The translations under genes were made by a program, and so were the position numbers. From Tautonia marina (lineage in GTDB: Bacteria; Planctomycetota; Planctomycetia; Isosphaerales; Isosphaeraceae): 64,000 nt of DNA. Below, one piece after another: positions 17,400-26,025 of the stretch (position 1 is the first letter of the stretch; every line of letters starts with the position of its first letter). The stretch lies in assembly GCF_009177065.1 (NCBI RefSeq), contig NZ_WEZF01000002.1, positions 310,001 to 374,000 on the forward strand, written 5' to 3'. Under the pieces are notes generated by a model. It searched no databases. It saw only the letters and a list, made by a program, of their open reading frames with translations, and had not been told where the DNA came from.

Positions 17400-18245
17400 T
17401 CAGCGTTTCTGATCGGGGGCCAGAACCCGCAACACCTCATCATGCAAGTTTCGGTCACAGGTACTCAGAAGACTTCGCCTTGAGAGGATCTGGTCGCGCT
17501 CACCATCGAGTCCCGAGATCACCCCACCGGCCTCCTCGACACACGGCACCAGGGCCGCGATATCCCACGGACTCATCAACGAATCCCAGGCAATGTGGAG
17601 TCTTCCCCGACAGACCAGGGCATGCTGGATACAATCTCCCACGAACCGGAACCGCCGGGCCGAGCGGATCAGGTGCGTCAATCGAAACGGAATTTGTCCG
17701 TCGGATGCCTGAATGTCACTCGAATGAGGGCCGGTCGTGGAGGCATAGGCCTCACTAAGTCGCACAGGAGACGCCACCCGAACGGGTTCCGGCGACTCGT
17801 TGGGTGACGGACGCCACCAGCAACCAGACCCCTTGGCGGCGAAGGTCGTTTCGCCGGTGGCCGGTTGGTGGATCACACCGATTACCGGGTCGTCCCCTTC
17901 AACCAGGGCGACCAGGGTGCCGAACATCGGCAAGCCCAGGGCAAAGGCCGCCGTTCCGTCGATCGGGTCGATGACCCATCGGCGATTGCTTCCGTTCCGC
18001 GCGGGATGCTCGCCGAACTCCTCGCCAAGCACACCGTCGTCGGGCCGTTCCCGGCTCAAGAGTTCGCGAATGCGTTGCTCGGCTGCCCGGTCGGCCGCCG
18101 TCACTTCCGTCCCATCCGGCTTCCACTCGACCGCGCAGCGACGGAAGTAGGGCAGAATCGTCTCGGTCGCCGCATCGGCCAGGGCCAGCGCCAGGGCCAG
18201 GTCGGGGTGGTTCTTGACGTCGGTCATCGCATCAGGAGCGGTCAT
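17400..18245 (-). CDS. Inositol-monophosphatase-family phosphatase, HisN-like
   Basis: The 281-residue protein has the family motifs GEEFGE (metal Glu), WVIDPIDGTAAFALG (the DPIDGT core) and SLMSPWDIAALVPCVEEAGG (the second metal Asp). The family removes phosphate from inositol phosphate, histidinol phosphate or PAP. The best impression is of a HisN-type histidinol phosphatase, without neighbouring his genes to support it. The start at 18245 overlaps the end of the AddA-like gene by 14 bases. A second in-frame ATG at 18227 would avoid the overlap. Confidence 0.85.
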   Translation of the reverse strand: MTAPDAMTDVKNHPDLALALALADAATETILPYFRRCAVEWKPDGTEVTAADRAAEQRIRELLSRERPDDGVLGEEFGEHPARNGSNRRWVIDPIDGTAAFALGLPMFGTLVALVEGDDPVIGVIHQPATGETTFAAKGSGCWWRPSPNESPEPVRVASPVRLSEAYASTTGPHSSDIQASDGQIPFRLTHLIRSARRFRFVGDCIQHALVCRGRLHIAWDSLMSPWDIAALVPCVEEAGGVISGLDGERDQILSRRSLLSTCDRNLHDEVLRVLAPDQKR

Positions 18246-21200
18246 GTTCGGCCTCGGATCGAGACGCCCCGGCCGATCGCCGGCGAACCGGTCGGCGTTG
18301 GGAGCGAGCGGGAGAATCCTCGCTGGCGATTGTACGAGAGAACCGTCGACGGTCGAGCCTCTCCTCCAGGGCTTCTTCCGGCTCTGCTCTGAGACGAACG
18401 AGCCAGCCCTCCTCGATCCGAGCGAGTCCGAGCCCCGGCGCAGCCTGACCTGAAAGCACGAGCCGACGTTCCCCCCATCCCGCCGGTGACTGGGGATGTT
18501 CCCAGACCACCAGGTTCCACGAGCCCCCTTCACGAAACGCCAGGTCAAGCTCACCCCGGTGGACGCCGTCCATTGCCTCAGGACCGGTCCCGTCTGCAAG
18601 CAAGGTCCAGGAGCGCCTGCCGACCCGAGCCTCGGCCGCTGCAATCCGGCGGGCCAGCGATCCGACACACCACGGGATCACCAGATGTTTCGCCGCCTCG
18701 ACCACGCGACGTGGAGACGCCGGGATCGTCGCTCGACCAGCGCGCTCGATCGCGGCGATCGGATCGGCAACCCAGGCCGCGTCCGGATCGCAAAGGACTC
18801 CTCGGATCAGGCGAAGGACCCGAGTGGCGAAGGGAGGCAGCCCCGTTTCCGGCAGGTGTTCGAGCCAGGTCGGACGAATTGCCGGAGTCGAGCGATCGGG
18901 AGCCCCTCCCGGAGTGGCTCGCATAATCGTCCGGGCAATCGTGAACCGATCCACGCGCTTCCGGGTGACCGCATTTCGCAACGATTGCCGTTCCGGGGAT
19001 TGCGTGATGACCCCGACCCGAGGGAGAGGCCACTCCTCCGGGATCTCGACCCGCAACGCCCCGTTGGTCAGATCGAATCGCTGGGCAATGCGCACCATCG
19101 CCGGGGAATACGGTCGGTAGAACGATTGCCGGGACGACTCCTGACCACGATCCCCGAGCAGCAGGGGCTTGTTCAACCCATTGGAGAGAATCAAATGACT
19201 GACCGCTCGGGTCGCGGCCACATAAAAAAGTCGGTCGGCTTCGTCCCGCTCCTCGCGCTCCTCGGAGGCACGGTACAGCAGTTCGGCAAGCCCCCGAGGT
19301 GAGTTGTCCTGCCCGAAGGTCGGCGCGTCTTCACCTGGTTCGGGACTCGTGCGGACGATCGGTCCGTAGCGCGCATGCATCAACACCGATTGCGACCGCG
19401 GGGGAGCGGCGCGGTCGAGATCGGGCACGATGACGATCGGGAATTCGAGCCCCTTGGCCCGGTGGATCGTCATGAGGCGAACCGCATCCCCTTGCTCGGT
19501 ATTCGTAGCCGCCTGGTCCTCCCGCGCGAGGGTCCGCAGGTCGTTCCGGAGCCGGGCCACGAAATCGGCCAGCGGATACCCCCCTCGATCGTACGAACTG
19601 GCCAGGCGGACCAACTTCCGCACGTTGGCCCGCTTGCGATCACCGAGCGGATCAGCCACGATCGCTGCTTCAAAACCCGACTCATCGAGCACGTGATCAT
19701 ACAGAGTCGCAATGGGGGCCCGATCCTTGAGCAATCGCCAGCGATTCAAGAGTTCCCGCGCCCGAACCGCCCGACGACGATCTGCCGGGCCAAGCTCCTC
19801 GATCTGATCGCAGCGCCGGAGGTTTTGCTGCAGATCCGCCGGCCGATCGTCGGGTCGGGCGTTGGCGAGCCAGTAGAGCCCCTCATCGCTGATGCCGAAG
19901 AACGGGCTCCGGAGCGTCGCCGCCAGAGCGAGCGGATCGAACGGGTCTTCGATCGCCGCCAGCAAGTTCACGACGTCCAGCACTTCCTGCTGGGCAAAAA
20001 AGGCCGAGCCATCGACGGTATGATAATCAAGCCCTTCGGCGGCGAGGGCCTCCTCGTACACCCCCACATTCGTCAGGGCTCGGAACAGGATGGCGACGTC
20101 GTTGGGTCGGGCCGGACGCCTCGAGCCGTCGGTCGGGTCCTGAATCGTCCAGCCCTGTTCCAGCCGATCGGCGATGAGACGAGCAATCCAGCCCGCCTCA
20201 ACCCGTCGCGTTGCCGTTTTCGATCGTCCCGAGGATTCCGGCTCATACGCCCAGAGAAACTCGACCGCCGGGGGATCGTTCGGGGTCGAAGGCACGGGAC
20301 GCTCGGCCCGAAGGGCCTCCGAAGGGTCCGTGTAGAGATCCGCGAACAGGGCATTGACGAACTGAATCACCCCCGGAACACTCCGGAAGTTTCCGGTCAA
20401 TGAGAGCCGTCCCTCCTCCTCCAAACCGTCTCGAAATCGCGTAAAGATCGTCGGCTCAGCCCCTCGAAAGCGGTAGATCGACTGCTTCGAATCACCGACC
20501 AGGAACAGGCGACCCATCGAGGGATCGTCACCGGCCAGTGCCTGCACGATGGCGCCTTGAATCGGGTCGGTGTCCTGGAACTCATCGACAAGAAGCAACT
20601 CGATTTCCTCCTGAAGCGACGCGAGCACCTCCTCTCCGCGATCGAGCAACAATGACCGTGCCTTGATCAGGAGATCGTCGAAATCGGCCAGCTCGCGGCG
20701 GCGTTTCAGGCGATCGACTTCGTCCAGGGCCTCCCGAGCCAGCGCCGCGAACCGCACCCCCAGTTCGGCCGATCGGTGGGTCAGATCCTCATCCCACTGC
20801 AACGATTTGCGCGCCCGATCGACGGCGTCCCGAAGTGCCTTGTAACCATCTCGGACACTCATGTACACGTCGATCGACGTCCAGTGTTTCCCGGTCCCTC
20901 CTCCGGCGACAGTCGCATGCTCTCGAATCACCTCGAACGAGAGATCCGGGTGAGGCGCCTCGGGTAACAGCGGAATCTCAGCGAGCAGGACCGCTCGACG
21001 ATCGGCCCCCACCGGATGCTCGCATTCGTGATTTCGGAGCAATTCCAGCAGAGGCCGGGCATCCTCGACAAAACGCTGCAGGAGTGACGGTTGCCCCTCG
21101 CTCAACCAGGCCGATCGCCAGCGATCGATCAGCTCGGCCGCGCTCAGGTCGGCCCACTGACCAGGGTGGGCCAGGGCTCGACCGAGCAAGAGGGATCGCA

Positions 21201-21753
21201 AGCCGTTCCGAACGGCATCGAGCCCGAGTTCGACGGCCAGGGCGATGAGGTCGGGATGACCGTCCGCCAGCCATCGACGCATGCAGATCCGCAAGGCCTC
21301 ATCCCGGAGGGTCGGGGCGATCGACTCCTCCAGCACGCCGAATTCCGGTGGCAACCCCGCTTGCTCCGGAAACCGCTTCAACAGTTCAAGACAGAATCCG
21401 TGAAAGGTGCCGATTCGTCCAGCTTCAAGGCCACGAAGCACCCGACGCCAGTGGTGCGTGTCAGGGCCTCCGGCATGGATCCGGCGTCGGCATTCCGCCC
21501 GGATGCGGCCGCGCATCTCGGCCGCGGCCTTTTCGGTGAAGGTCACGGCAACGAGGCGATCGAGCGGCATCCGATCGTTCAACGCCAGAACGAAGCGGTC
21601 GGTCAAGACTCGGGTCTTCCCACAGCCCGCCCCGGACGCCAGCGCAACGCTCACCCTCGCGTCGAGCGCCCGTTGCTGTTCGGGGGTCGGCGGGTGGGAC
21701 GTGGCCGCCTCGACCACCACGGTCCGCTCGACGGCGTGATCCGGGCCACTCAT
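18232..21753 (-). CDS. addA: AddA-like UvrD-family helicase with degraded nuclease motif
   Basis: The 1173-residue superfamily 1 helicase shows motif I SGAGCGKTRVL, Ia VTFTEKAAAEMRGRI, II LLLVDEFQDTDP, III VGDSKQSIYRFRGAE, IV LTGNFRS, V MTIHRAKGLEFPIV and VI VAATRAVSHLI. These place it with AddA. Its partner AddB-like gene lies immediately upstream with a four-base overlap. Active AddA proteins end in a PD-(D/E)xK nuclease with a 'GxxDL...vDYKT' core. Here the matching stretch (about 1067-1088) reads GELDLAFREGGSW then NLVVWEHPQ, so DYK is lost. The protein should still be a DNA translocase for double-strand break processing. Helicase assignment is firm; nuclease loss is from reading the motif. 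Confidence 0.88.
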   Translation of the reverse strand: MSGPDHAVERTVVVEAATSHPPTPEQQRALDARVSVALASGAGCGKTRVLTDRFVLALNDRMPLDRLVAVTFTEKAAAEMRGRIRAECRRRIHAGGPDTHHWRRVLRGLEAGRIGTFHGFCLELLKRFPEQAGLPPEFGVLEESIAPTLRDEALRICMRRWLADGHPDLIALAVELGLDAVRNGLRSLLLGRALAHPGQWADLSAAELIDRWRSAWLSEGQPSLLQRFVEDARPLLELLRNHECEHPVGADRRAVLLAEIPLLPEAPHPDLSFEVIREHATVAGGGTGKHWTSIDVYMSVRDGYKALRDAVDRARKSLQWDEDLTHRSAELGVRFAALAREALDEVDRLKRRRELADFDDLLIKARSLLLDRGEEVLASLQEEIELLLVDEFQDTDPIQGAIVQALAGDDPSMGRLFLVGDSKQSIYRFRGAEPTIFTRFRDGLEEEGRLSLTGNFRSVPGVIQFVNALFADLYTDPSEALRAERPVPSTPNDPPAVEFLWAYEPESSGRSKTATRRVEAGWIARLIADRLEQGWTIQDPTDGSRRPARPNDVAILFRALTNVGVYEEALAAEGLDYHTVDGSAFFAQQEVLDVVNLLAAIEDPFDPLALAATLRSPFFGISDEGLYWLANARPDDRPADLQQNLRRCDQIEELGPADRRRAVRARELLNRWRLLKDRAPIATLYDHVLDESGFEAAIVADPLGDRKRANVRKLVRLASSYDRGGYPLADFVARLRNDLRTLAREDQAATNTEQGDAVRLMTIHRAKGLEFPIVIVPDLDRAAPPRSQSVLMHARYGPIVRTSPEPGEDAPTFGQDNSPRGLAELLYRASEEREERDEADRLFYVAATRAVSHLILSNGLNKPLLLGDRGQESSRQSFYRPYSPAMVRIAQRFDLTNGALRVEIPEEWPLPRVGVITQSPERQSLRNAVTRKRVDRFTIARTIMRATPGGAPDRSTPAIRPTWLEHLPETGLPPFATRVLRLIRGVLCDPDAAWVADPIAAIERAGRATIPASPRRVVEAAKHLVIPWCVGSLARRIAAAEARVGRRSWTLLADGTGPEAMDGVHRGELDLAFREGGSWNLVVWEHPQSPAGWGERRLVLSGQAAPGLGLARIEEGWLVRLRAEPEEALEERLDRRRFSRTIASEDSPARSQRRPVRRRSAGASRSEAEHDRS

Positions 21754-24700
21754 CGAAGGTCCTCCTCGCCGGGCTCACTCATCGTCGGGGCCTCGGGCCA
21801 GGGCTTGCGGGCCTGTCGAACCTGGTGGAAACGGCAAACGGTTCGGTAATCGCAATTCCGTTCGCAATCGGGCTTTTCGAACTGGGCCGGCATCATCCCG
21901 AGCCGGAGCCGATCGACGAGATCAAGCACGAAGCGAACGATCCGATCGGGACCGGGCTTCCATCCTTCTCGGGAGAACAGGTCGCCGTCTCGGTATTCGG
22001 CCAGGGTCACGAGCGGGGCGTACCCTTTCCCCCGCAAGGCCCAGTAGCCGGCGTCGATCGCCCGCGGATTCTCCTCGGCCGGCAAGGCTCGCTCGACCGC
22101 CATCGCATAAAGCGGCAGTTGCAGCGCCAGTCCCTCCTCCAGCTTCTTCCGCGAGGGGACCGATCCGGTCTTGTAGTCGATCACACGAAAGAGCAAGCCC
22201 GAGGGATGCCGGATCATATCGATGCGATCAATCATTCCTTGAAGCCGCACCTGTTCATCCCCCTCGCCCAGCACCAGGGCCGGGCCGTCGCGATGCTCCT
22301 CGTCGCCGAACGAAAATTCGAAATGCTCGGGAGCCAGATCACGCCCGAGCGACTCAGCATAACGCCGAAACTGATCAGCGTAGGTTTTCCCGATCCGAGC
22401 CATGCGCTCGGCCTCGATCGCCCGGAGCCCTCGGCCCACGTCGGAGCTGGGGCTCGCTTCGCGTTCCAGCTCATCACGAACCGCTCGCTCGATCCGATCG
22501 GCAATCGCCTCATCGAGCGAGATCCCGTTCGAGGGCGGCTCGTCGCGCAAGCCCAGATGCAACGATTCAAGGACCGCGTGCATCAGGCTCCCGCCGGCGG
22601 TCCGGTCCTCCTCCAGTTCGTCACGCTCCTCGATCGGATCAAGACGAAGCACATATCTGAGAAAGAATTGAAATGGGCAGAATGCCAACGATTCCAGTTG
22701 GCTCGCGCTGAAGGTGTACGACGGGCCGAACTCGGAGGCCAGGCGTTGGATGATTCGAGGGTCGCGTAGCATTCCCTCGAAGCGGCTGATTCCATGTCGT
22801 CGGGGCCGCCAAACGGGGTGCCGGGCCCGTCGCTCGTTGACCAGCAAGGCCGAGGCCGAGGCGCGAAGCAAGGCACGATGTTCGGGACCCGAGGCGAGCA
22901 TGGCCAGCTCGCTCGGATCATTGATCGCAGCTCGGGCCATTGCTCGAACGCGGCGCTCAAGCGGCGATTGCGGCGGCGTTTCTCGAAGCGCGGGATCGAG
23001 CTTCCGGTTGTCCCGAACAATCCGGTGCCTGACTTCGTCTGACAGTAGGGTCTCGACCTCGACGAGGAACCCGGCCGCGAGCTTATCGACTCCCTTCTCG
23101 TCGCTGGTCGGATACGCAAGCGTGAGGCTGACCTCAGCCGCCCCCAGCACGCGGAGAAACCGAGCCATCTCTCGACCGAACGGTGTGGGATCCGACGCCG
23201 CGATCGGTGCATCATCAAAGCGCAATCGCATTTGACTGATCGATCCACGACGGAGGACCGCGTCCGTAGGCTCGTCGTTCAGGGGGAGTTCCTCCCCATC
23301 ATGACCCGGTTCCGGCGCCTCGTGAGACTGGTCGTCTGGGTCGGCGGTCGGTCCCACGGAGGAGCGGTTGGGGAAGGTTCCCTCGGCCAGGTTTGTGAGA
23401 AGGATGTGCCGGGCAATCACCCCGGCCGCCTCATCGACGGTGGCGAAGCGAATGGCACCGACCGTCGATCCTTCCGGGGCGGGCAAGTCCTGAAGGATCA
23501 CCTCCACCTCCGCGACAAAGGAGGCCCAGTTCCACGATTCCCTCCCCAGTCCCAGCCCTTCGAGCACCATTGCATGATCATCAAGTGCGCTGAACAGGTG
23601 GCCCAACGCTCCCTCTGACTCGGGATCGAGTCCCAGCTCGATCGCCAGTCCGGCGAGTCGATCCACCTGTTCCGACCAGGGACCGGGAATGGCCACGGAC
23701 TTGAGGCACTCGGACAACCGTTCAAAGACGGGCAACGCGATTCCCCCCAGCCAGGCCAGGCGCTGCCGATGGCGTCGCCGGTAATCGGGCTTGGAGGTCA
23801 TTTCCTCGTCCGACGTTGGGTGATCGATCATCCGGCCGAGGGACTCTGCGATGGCGTCACATCCTCGATAGACACGGGCTTCACGCAAGGCCGCGGCCGA
23901 GGCGGCAAGGGCCATCGGATGCCCCTTGGCCTCCTCCCAGTCGGGGCGAAGACGGCCATTCCGGAGCAGTCGGCCGAGGAGTTCCGTGTCCCAGTCCTCA
24001 ACGGGCACGGCCATCGCTAGCTTCAGGGCCTGAACCGCCGCGTCGGAACCAATCGGCCGATCGCGTCCCGTGGTGACAGGAAGCCCCCAGGCGCGGAGCG
24101 TCTCGACGGAGATCGATGCCTGCTCATCCCAGGATCGGACCAGGATCAGCAGTTCTTCAGGAGGCTCCCCTTCCGCCAGGCGTTCGCGGGCCCAGACGGC
24201 CGCGACCCGGGCCAACCCTTCGCCACTCGAAGCTCCCCGAAGCGCTAGCCCTTCCGAACGATCGACCTGACCCTGACCGTGATCCCCTTCCCGGAACAGG
24301 TGCCGGTCGAGGCAAACAAGGCCGGCGGGTCGATGGTCGGACGGCTCGATCGACGTTTCAAGGAACCCCCACGCGAGCATCCGTTCGCGGAACCGGGCCG
24401 ATGGTGCATCAACCTCGGCTCGGGACGGATCACCGTCGAAGGTCAGGACCAGGCCGAGCTGGTTCACCGAGTGCCGCATGGCGTCGATGGCCAGCCGGAC
24501 GGGACGATCCTCGGTCGGAGGCTCGACCACGACCACCCGATCGACCGATCCCCAGGCCCGGGGAAGCGTTTTGGCCAGATGAAACCAACTGGCATAGTAG
24601 GACTGTAGCCCGGCCTCATCGACTGCCCCAAGCCGCGCCAGCACCTCTTGATACGAGCGGTACACGGCCCGAACCTCCGCCTCGATCGGCCCGATCGGCG

Positions 24701-25109
24701 GAGGCAGGTCGGATGGTGCCCGACCGGCGGCCATCCATCGGGCAATGCGGCGGAAGACCCGACGGCGAAAGCCGGAAGAATCGGCGACCGAGGCCGAGAC
24801 GGACAGGGCTCCGACGTGTCTGGCCTGCTCGATGGCCGCTTGCAAGGCGGCCCGAACCCCGGCCGGAGCCAGGCAGAGCGGTCCTCCGGGATCATCGGCG
24901 CGGAGGTCGTGCCAGAGATCGGCCCAGCAGAAGACCTGGTCAGCGGGCGATCGGCCCGGAGCCTGCGCGATCCGACGGGCCAGCCGGTCCCGGGCCAGCG
25001 GAGTCGGCATGATCCAGGTGGTGGCCCGCCCCTTCGGTCCTCGAACCCGATCGAGCCAGGACGCCCCCACCGGGCCGGTCCAGAGCCTCCGGTCGGCCGC
25101 CTTGCTCAT
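21750..25109 (-). CDS. addB: AddB-like nuclease subunit
   Basis: The 1119-residue protein ends in an AddB-type nuclease: FCPFQFFLRYVLRLDP (first cluster Cys), GGSLMHAVLESL, GMIDRIDMIR, VIDYKTGSVPSRKK (catalytic Asp and Lys) and a closing Cys group DCERNCDYRTVC for an iron-sulfur cluster. The N-terminus corresponds to the inactive-helicase arm. The usual Walker A Gly-Lys-Thr is absent (WTGPVGASWLD). It is translationally coupled to the AddA-like gene, and together they should form a RecBCD-like end-resection complex. The ATG at 25109 has GAGGGGGAT before it, although this places its start 170 bases inside the uppP frame. A later ATG at 25010 is possible. Confidence 0.85.
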   Translation of the reverse strand: MSKAADRRLWTGPVGASWLDRVRGPKGRATTWIMPTPLARDRLARRIAQAPGRSPADQVFCWADLWHDLRADDPGGPLCLAPAGVRAALQAAIEQARHVGALSVSASVADSSGFRRRVFRRIARWMAAGRAPSDLPPPIGPIEAEVRAVYRSYQEVLARLGAVDEAGLQSYYASWFHLAKTLPRAWGSVDRVVVVEPPTEDRPVRLAIDAMRHSVNQLGLVLTFDGDPSRAEVDAPSARFRERMLAWGFLETSIEPSDHRPAGLVCLDRHLFREGDHGQGQVDRSEGLALRGASSGEGLARVAAVWARERLAEGEPPEELLILVRSWDEQASISVETLRAWGLPVTTGRDRPIGSDAAVQALKLAMAVPVEDWDTELLGRLLRNGRLRPDWEEAKGHPMALAASAAALREARVYRGCDAIAESLGRMIDHPTSDEEMTSKPDYRRRHRQRLAWLGGIALPVFERLSECLKSVAIPGPWSEQVDRLAGLAIELGLDPESEGALGHLFSALDDHAMVLEGLGLGRESWNWASFVAEVEVILQDLPAPEGSTVGAIRFATVDEAAGVIARHILLTNLAEGTFPNRSSVGPTADPDDQSHEAPEPGHDGEELPLNDEPTDAVLRRGSISQMRLRFDDAPIAASDPTPFGREMARFLRVLGAAEVSLTLAYPTSDEKGVDKLAAGFLVEVETLLSDEVRHRIVRDNRKLDPALRETPPQSPLERRVRAMARAAINDPSELAMLASGPEHRALLRASASALLVNERRARHPVWRPRRHGISRFEGMLRDPRIIQRLASEFGPSYTFSASQLESLAFCPFQFFLRYVLRLDPIEERDELEEDRTAGGSLMHAVLESLHLGLRDEPPSNGISLDEAIADRIERAVRDELEREASPSSDVGRGLRAIEAERMARIGKTYADQFRRYAESLGRDLAPEHFEFSFGDEEHRDGPALVLGEGDEQVRLQGMIDRIDMIRHPSGLLFRVIDYKTGSVPSRKKLEEGLALQLPLYAMAVERALPAEENPRAIDAGYWALRGKGYAPLVTLAEYRDGDLFSREGWKPGPDRIVRFVLDLVDRLRLGMMPAQFEKPDCERNCDYRTVCRFHQVRQARKPWPEAPTMSEPGEEDLR

Positions 25110-25971
25110 GGGTCATCCCCCTCGAATCCTCGCCCTGGCCCATCAGCGCCACGGAGCCCAGGACCACCCCCGAAAGCAACACCAGGTATACAGAAAAATA
25201 CCAGAGTCGGCCCGATCGGACAATCCGAACCAGCCAGACAATTGCACCATAGCCGACGATTCCCGAGAGGATCGTCGCCAGGCCGGTCATCTGAAGAACC
25301 TCGGTTGAAAGGGACTCGATCTGAAGATCCTTGCCGACCAGGACCGATGCCCCGAGGATCGCCGGGACGTTGATCAGGAGGCTAAACCCGACCGCCCAGG
25401 TGCGCGAAAACCCCAACGCCAGGGCGGCGGCGATGGTCGAACCGCTTCGGCTGATCCCCGGAGTAATGGCGAACGCCTGCGCCACGCCGACAAGCAGGGC
25501 GTCGAGCCAGGTCGTCTCGGCCGGCCCCTTCAGCCCGGCCTTCATGCGGGTGGTCGAGAGCAGCAAGGCCGCCGTGACGAGGAAGGCAAACCCTGGCACG
25601 AGAATGTTTTCGAACGCCTCGTCCACGGTCTTCTTCAAGGTCAGCCCGACGACCACTGCCGGCAAGGTCGCGACGACCGCCAGCAAGCCGCTGCGGAGGA
25701 CGATCGCTCGGGTCGGGGTTTCGCCCACTCCGCCCCCGGTCACCAATCCCCGGGCTCCCGACCTCATGACGCGACGATAAAAGACCAGGATGGCCAGGAG
25801 GGTTCCCAGATGCAGCATCACGATGAAGAACAGGCCATCAGGACGGTTCTCGACCGTTCCCAGCGAGTGAAAGAGAGACGCCGCCACCGCCAGGTGCCCA
25901 CTGCTGGAAACCGGCAAGAATTCCGTCAGGCCCTGAAGCACGGCCAGGGTCAGGGCTTCGAACCAGGTCAT
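24940..25971 (-). CDS. uppP: Undecaprenyl-diphosphatase with extra C-terminal tail
   Basis: This membrane enzyme recycles undecaprenyl diphosphate to the carrier used in wall polymer synthesis. Signatures are LQGLTEFLPVSSSGHL near the N-terminus and ITPGISRSGSTIAAALALG in the middle, with about eight hydrophobic helices. Homology ends near VVLGSVALMGQGED. The frame then continues about 60 residues through the start of addB in another phase, and this tail is Gly/Arg/Pro-rich and unlike the family. The original stop was probably lost. An in-frame TTG at 25998 is an alternative start; the ATG is preferred because the homology begins with MTWFEAL. Confidence 0.92.
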   Translation of the reverse strand: MTWFEALTLAVLQGLTEFLPVSSSGHLAVAASLFHSLGTVENRPDGLFFIVMLHLGTLLAILVFYRRVMRSGARGLVTGGGVGETPTRAIVLRSGLLAVVATLPAVVVGLTLKKTVDEAFENILVPGFAFLVTAALLLSTTRMKAGLKGPAETTWLDALLVGVAQAFAITPGISRSGSTIAAALALGFSRTWAVGFSLLINVPAILGASVLVGKDLQIESLSTEVLQMTGLATILSGIVGYGAIVWLVRIVRSGRLWYFSVYLVLLSGVVLGSVALMGQGEDSRGMTHEQGGRPEALDRPGGGVLARSGSRTEGAGHHLDHADSAGPGPAGPSDRAGSGPIAR

Positions 25972-26025
25972 GGGTCGGTTACTCAGGGGATCGGGCAAGG
26001 AACTGGAGTTCGACTCAGAACGCCA

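Follow-up and report, generated by a model that had tools for sequence, protein, structure and literature searches.

The model enzymes AddAB and RecBCD break down DNA ends until Chi alters them. Two further systems are relevant for comparison: AdnAB, which consists of two subunits that each carry a motor and a nuclease, and the Escherichia coli RecBC enzyme without RecD, which is a Chi-independent recombinase. The two nucleases of Bacillus AddAB divide the strands between them, with AddA cutting the 3'-ended and AddB the 5'-ended one (PMC4824097, PMC4027173); the former paper also describes the N-terminal half of AddB as the part that reads Chi, a latch in which E129 together with R629 holds the exit closed, and ATP at a second site, located in AddB, that stabilises the Chi complex. 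In RecBCD, the nuclease domain of the partner subunit is dead, and it has been suggested that the state preceding this loss may have been similar to AddAB (PMC1185551); in six isopod Wolbachia strains, a stop in addA deletes the nuclease domain (PMC4224334). Here we describe an addAB pair in a stretch of 64,000 nucleotides from Tautonia marina (contig NZ_WEZF01000002.1 of assembly GCF_009177065.1, positions 310,001 to 374,000 of the forward strand; hereinafter, the window), a genome of 7.07 Mb in 80 contigs. As judged from alignments and structural models, the nuclease fold of this AddA is present with its active site lost, and the AddB nuclease appears intact.

The addB and addA genes follow each other on the minus strand with a 4-base overlap. 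The features discussed below, numbered from the first letter of the window and with the AddA active-site positions taken from the alignment, are:

18232..21753, minus strand: addA, 1173 amino acids (aa), superfamily 1A (SF1A) helicase subunit with intact motifs (residues 41-47, 71-80, 387-396, 420-431, 554-559, 759-771 and 842-850)
18319..18834, minus strand: RecB-family nuclease domain of AddA, predicted to be dead, about residues 974-1145 (from the secondary structure of the model)
18544..18546, minus strand: D1070, the sole retained AddA active-site residue
18499..18507, minus strand: V1083-W1084-E1085, replacing D-Y/F-K in AddA
18802..18804, minus strand: R984, replacing the active-site His of AddA
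18463..18465, minus strand: R1097, replacing the active-site Gln of AddA
21750..25109, minus strand: addB, encoding 1119 aa, with an N-terminal half resembling a helicase and a nuclease whose site is predicted to be intact
21831..22715, minus strand: PDDEXK_1 nuclease domain of AddB, residues 799-1093, with H844, D961, D978, K980, Q997 and Y1001
21834..21866, minus strand: iron-sulphur (Fe-S) cysteines 1082, 1086 and 1092 of AddB, joined by Cys811 at 22677-22679
25053..25076, minus strand: AddB residues 12-19, GPVGASWL, in the place of Walker A

An earlier note on this DNA, made from the sequence alone, had already described an AddAB-like pair here; its coordinates of the open reading frames (ORFs) and its motifs are correct, the helicase motifs it reported could all be located in AddA, and AddB carries IDYKTG (from residue 977, VIDYKTG from 976) with the four cysteines and, as the note had said, no Walker A. 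A Pfam scan with E up to 1 detected UvrD domains and no PD-(D/E)XK domain in the window AddA; in AddB, it detected PDDEXK_1 (3.4e-40) and, at the same threshold, no UvrD match. TIGR02785 matched AddA with an E of 1.7e-92 and 311 bits, under its cut-off of 707.65, and the RecB model TIGR00609 reached 194 bits against a cut-off of 696. The best match in both sequence and fold is Bacillus subtilis AddAB (3u44, 4ceh, 4cei, 4cej), which shares with the window pair the domain order of both subunits, the AddA motor and the AddB nuclease with its Fe-S cysteines, and differs in that here the AddA nuclease appears dead and the Walker A and latch Glu of AddB are gone. By its sequence, the pair is AddAB by descent that appears to lack one defining activity, the AddA nuclease. 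Like RecBCD, it has one of two homologous nuclease domains dead and retained as a structural part, but here it is the motor subunit, the RecB counterpart, that has the dead domain and the RecC counterpart that has the live one; this pattern and the score of the RecB model, with no genome-wide search made for RecD, place the pair outside RecBCD. It also differs from AdnAB, given that AddB has neither Walker A nor a UvrD match and that the AddA nuclease is dead.

The loss of the AddA active site is apparent from an alignment with 70 AddA relatives from across prokaryotes (the best 80 of a scan with one genome per species, minus 10; alignment A3 contains 51 of the 70). At the active-site columns, the window AddA shows H984R, E1046R, D1083V, K1085E, Q1097R and Y1101S, with D1070 kept, whereas H, E, both D, K and Y are found in 69 of the 70 relatives and Q in 68; the lone relative that fails, L112, comes from a Planctomycetales genome of the window's own family. 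The core does read GELDLAF (beginning at residue 1067) and VVWEHPQ (at 1082) where active AddA has D...DYK, as the earlier note claimed, except that the first Asp remains as D1070, so that the site is not wholly erased. The model of full-length AddA, with a mean predicted local distance difference test score (pLDDT) of 85.8, has AddAB subunit A as its top PDB match; the nuclease domain modelled alone, with a mean pLDDT of 72.0, matches 4ceh_A (B. subtilis AddA) at E 9.1e-5 as well as Cas4-family nucleases. A hidden Markov model (HMM) of intact AddA nucleases recovers, at E 0.01, 15 of the 33 dead domains of the window's family (the best matches being L020, 1e-11, and L018, 8.6e-9); the window's own domain does not match it at this threshold. 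Given that alignment and models indicate a nuclease fold that is present with its active site lost, the pair is classed as an AddAB-like variant with one nuclease.

Two other explanations of this loss were considered and rejected. A sequencing or assembly accident is refuted by the sharing of the change among all 41 readable AddA of the family, including those in genomes of 1 to 9 contigs, and by the closest congener, 90% identical, which carries the same residues. Chance or an alignment error is countered by the conservation of G1067 and D1070 beside the lost residues and by the filled state of the other columns in 69 of 70 relatives. A moved active site is not indicated by the Lys and second Asp columns: in all dead copies of the window's family (33) and of family f3 (8), the former is without K and the latter without D or E. 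Together with the match of the modelled domain to B. subtilis AddA, this covers part of the refuting check proposed in the earlier note, intact catalytic Asp, Glu and Lys elsewhere in the C-terminus. Past the linker, the 33 dead copies share no Lys at a level of 70% or more, and D989 and E1130, each conserved in 25 of the 33, do not correspond to active-site columns of intact AddA.

The distribution of the loss was traced across the phylum. In the window's family (f1, probably Isosphaeraceae by our assumption), with genomes of 3.4-10.9 Mb, an AddA match at 1e-45 was obtained for 43 of 45 genomes, the remaining two being 77-81% complete; an order-wide search returned the same 45 genomes. Two of the 43 addA loci are cut by contig ends, and none of the 41 readable ones is intact: 33 have a dead domain and 8 end shortly past motif VI. 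In family f3, which we take to be probably Gemmataceae, an AddA match at 1e-80 was found in 19 of 95 genomes; among the 16 of the planctomycete type, none is intact (10 with a remnant, L200 among them, and 6 without the domain), and the remaining 3 are of a distant type with DWK. By the same 1e-80 threshold, 76 of the 95 f3 genomes have no match, and AddA, where present, is often unlinked from AddB. In a third family, f2 (120 genomes searched, 51 matched, 50 examined), 43 of the 47 planctomycete-type AddA are intact, 2 are dead (L073, L074), 1 has no domain (L240) and 1 lies at a contig end; the 3 distant-type AddA of this family are intact. This second, distant type (L209-L211, L252-L254), with intact DWK, DYK or DFK in a few f3 and f2 genomes, was perhaps acquired from outside.

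The other families of the class contributed 10 AddA loci, L079 among them with only distant similarity, and each has an intact nuclease. Of 25 new loci from the rest of the phylum, taken from a match list of 110 genomes, 21 are intact, 3 run into contig ends and one, L186, is interrupted and ends early. The best 80 of the species-wide scan comprise 73 intact AddA, 5 at contig ends, L145, whose nuclease lies in the following frame, and the dead L112. As regards individual loci, L067 carries DYK in its AddA, L061 and L164 belong to one genome, and the dead AddA include L200, which appears to be frame-shifted and gives a domain match in another frame.

In a quick tree of 86 hand-chosen AddA motors, built without a mixture model, f1 and f3 each occupy one side of a branch, with support of 88 and 100, respectively, and the distribution of intact and lost nucleases requires 4 state changes. 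When the tree is constrained to place f1 and f3 together, the likelihood exceeds that of the free quick tree by 33 (approximately unbiased test, p-AU 0.79). With these families grouped, three losses would suffice, one in f1 plus f3, one in the lineage of L073 and L074, and one in L240, so judging from these sequences the AddA nuclease was probably lost three times in all.

The AddB nuclease, by comparison, seems to have been retained throughout. Its D, D, K, Q and Y are present in all 38 f1 AddB with data, that of the window among them, and in all 20 from the rest of the class (for five f1 loci, L009, L012, L017, L028 and L039, there is no AddB within the stretch taken). Among the same 38, cysteines 1082, 1086 and 1092 are invariant, and Cys811 is found in 37, the other being a gap in a partial row. 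DYK also occurs in an AddB of each of the 16 f3 genomes whose AddA has no nuclease (in 12 of them by PF12705 search), and the notion that AddB is missing where the f3 addA stands alone was rejected given that each of the 12 searched genomes has such an AddB-like protein. This protein adjoins the addA piece in G106 and G352; G386 shows only a 317-aa frame. In f2, too, L073, L074 and L240 combine the loss of the AddA nuclease with DYK in AddB, and no dead AddB nuclease was seen among the AddB examined, including the distant types (L210, L211 and L252, with DYK). Taken together, the alignment, the family-wide loss and the intact AddB strongly support the proposal of the earlier note that AddA has lost its nuclease.

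The Fe-S cysteines are more variable than the nuclease residues: two of them are lost in the AddB of L058, L061, L063 and L080 (genus g27 of f2) and all four in those of L073 and L074 (g62), in each case with the nuclease residues intact. These cysteines reportedly occur in a subset of AddB (Cromie 2009).

Considering the dead AddA, the live AddB and the division of labour between strands in Bacillus, a long 3' tail would be expected from the first base on, without Chi. We consider it fairly probable that the window encodes a single-nuclease AddAB that cuts the 5' strand only and makes 3' tails without a Chi switch. Under this scheme, AddA would unwind the broken end as usual, with its nuclease domain catalytically dead; the AddB nuclease, apparently intact together with its Fe-S cysteines, would cut the 5'-ended strand, as in Bacillus; and the 3'-ended strand would exit uncut, ready for RecA from the start. 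The dead AddA domain would be retained as a structural part that might hold the 3' strand or RecA. Both the polarity and the Chi independence we infer by analogy with the Bacillus enzyme. From the beginning, the f1 complex thus would probably generate the 3' tails with which repair starts, not awaiting a DNA signal. The expected outcome, RecA-ready tails without Chi, is the same as for RecBC without RecD; the difference is that a motor subunit is lost there and a nuclease active site here.

The fate of the dead domain bears on whether it has such a role. Its ratio of nonsynonymous to synonymous substitutions (dN/dS), estimated with NG86, which is rough in GC-rich genomes, and with trimmed motors, is 0.12-0.56 in 12 pairs, with a median ratio to the motor of 1.85 (range 0.9-2.9); for intact nucleases, the values are 0.09-0.20 in 7 pairs (an eighth gave no value), with a median ratio to the motor of 2.1 (range 0.9-3.7). 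Thus, the dead domain is under purifying selection, below neutrality; measured against its motor, it is under no looser constraint than a live domain, but it is freer in absolute terms. In the dead domains of f1 (33 copies), Arg occupies the His column in 29 and the Gln column in 28, and the first Asp column is D in 29 and E in 3; isolated rows retain H, Q or E1046 (1 of 33 in each case). In the 8 aligned dead copies of f3, the His column contains W (4), R (3) or Q (1), and the Gln column is G in 6. Two conserved Arg in the former metal site would fit a strand-holding role. A more elaborate form of the scheme, which we put forward tentatively and regard as somewhat doubtful, is a Chi-free, permanently switched AddAB whose AddA nuclease would have been turned into an Arg clamp on the 3' strand or for RecA loading: two new Arg beside the kept Asp would hold the 3' strand, and the AddB ATP site and latch, being unneeded, would have been lost. 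In Caulobacter, AddA has been suggested to interact with RecA (PMC5443536), which would give a reason for keeping the dead domain.

The same data can be viewed as the decay of the locus, with the AddA nuclease the first part to go and AddAB as a whole disappearing. This is compatible with the absence of the entire domain from 8 of 41 AddA in f1 and 6 of 16 in f3, the scarcity of AddA matches in f3, the f1 addA L038, which is split into two frames, and the higher dN/dS of the dead domain compared to intact nucleases. However, we consider decay very improbable given that the nuclease residues of AddB are kept in every case examined, that dN/dS is below 1 for both the motor and the dead domain, and that the AddA match is nearly universal in f1, missing only from two incomplete genomes.

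Without 3' cutting to be turned off, the Chi switch would have lost its purpose, which may be linked, albeit loosely, to the disappearance of the ATP site and the latch Glu from AddB in f1. Walker A is found in 0 of 33 AddB N-termini of f1, compared to 16 of 19 Planctomycetia AddB beside an intact planctomycete-type AddA. In the AddB alignment, which covers 28 of these 33 f1 rows and 17 of the 19 class rows, the Walker A Lys is present in 0 of 28 versus 14 of 17, the latch Glu in 1 of 28 versus 12 of 17, and the latch Arg in 1 of 28 versus 7 of 17. The AddB of f3 are intermediate (Walker A Lys in 2 of 4, latch Glu in 3 of 4), which suggests that the AddA nuclease was lost first and the AddB switch decayed later. 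Strict coupling of the two losses was rejected, there being exceptions in both directions. Outside the class, Walker A is missing in 9 of the 17 AddB beside a live AddA and present in about 8 (in an alignment of low identity, where these 17 rows are a fairer sample than a subset of 8 that all have Walker A), so that its absence alone says little and its link to Chi is loose. As far as the sequences go, the near-complete loss of the latch pair is the stronger sign in f1, and these features of AddB may, in a loose sense, speak against Chi-dependent attenuation of 3'-strand cutting.

Several observations weigh against a single-nuclease, Chi-free complex. The latch Arg is rare even in the class AddB with an intact AddA (7 of 17, as given above), and outside the class it is found in 15 of 17; the latch Glu is kept in 3 of 4 f3 AddB despite the loss of the AddA site, and it is present in 9 and missing in 8 of the 17 outside AddB, which, like the 9 without Walker A, lie beside a live AddA. 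The exceptions to coupling belong here as well: L066, L068 and L070 of family f11 have a live AddA with an AddB that has no Walker A and an altered latch region, and L060 and L287 of f3 and L074 of f2 have lost the AddA site and kept Walker A. The scanner region of the f1 AddB conserves a pattern of its own, W-x-D-L-W, and may therefore still contact DNA and read it to some extent. The dN/dS of the dead domain exceeds that of intact nucleases, pointing to weaker selection on it. Furthermore, a single nuclease in E. coli RecBCD cuts both strands, and therefore one live nuclease is no proof of one-strand cutting.

The last point leads to the possibility that the single AddB nuclease cuts both strands like that of RecB, in which case the DNA would still be degraded and a Chi-like signal may still act. 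Such an enzyme would mirror RecBCD, where the nuclease-like domain of RecC is dead and that of RecB is live (PMC1185551), and the conserved residues that the N-terminal region of the f1 AddB retains are compatible with it; nevertheless, we view it as unlikely because the AddAB nucleases are each placed at the exit of their own strand (PMC4027173, PMC4824097) and because f1 has lost both the Lys of Walker A and the Glu of the latch.

Alternatively, a separate nuclease might cut the 3' strand in trans, in which case the overall pathway would be ordinary. The T. marina genome does contain one further weak PDDEXK_1 match, a 177-aa ORF, but it lies on another contig among genes that, by eye, are possibly contaminating, and a PF12705 search of this genome, in which other exonuclease families were not included, yielded no second nuclease of the AddA or RecB type; we thus give this explanation little credence. 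The ORF in question (L002, G000:C31:28758-29138), of the PD-(D/E)XK type, adjoins lipoprotein-like genes that look gammaproteobacterial by eye.

The nearest published precedent that we found is the addA stop of isopod Wolbachia (PMC4224334), which likewise leaves an AddA without a nuclease beside AddB. There, it is a stop in a few endosymbiont strains; in f1, a whole family with large genomes is involved, and the domain is mostly kept under selection. No published planctomycete AddA without a nuclease was found in titles and the openings of abstracts, most subscription papers being beyond reach. The f1 AddAB would represent the mirror image of the route proposed for RecBCD, where it was the nuclease of the partner that died. 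A natural, family-wide AddAB in which AddA would do no 3' cutting and parts of the Chi switch are lost makes it possible to ask what purpose Chi control and double-strand degradation serve, and what their absence costs in phage defence, spacer capture or genome stability.

Within the window, the start of addB shares 170 bases with another ORF on the minus strand (24940-25998) that, by eye, is UppP-like.

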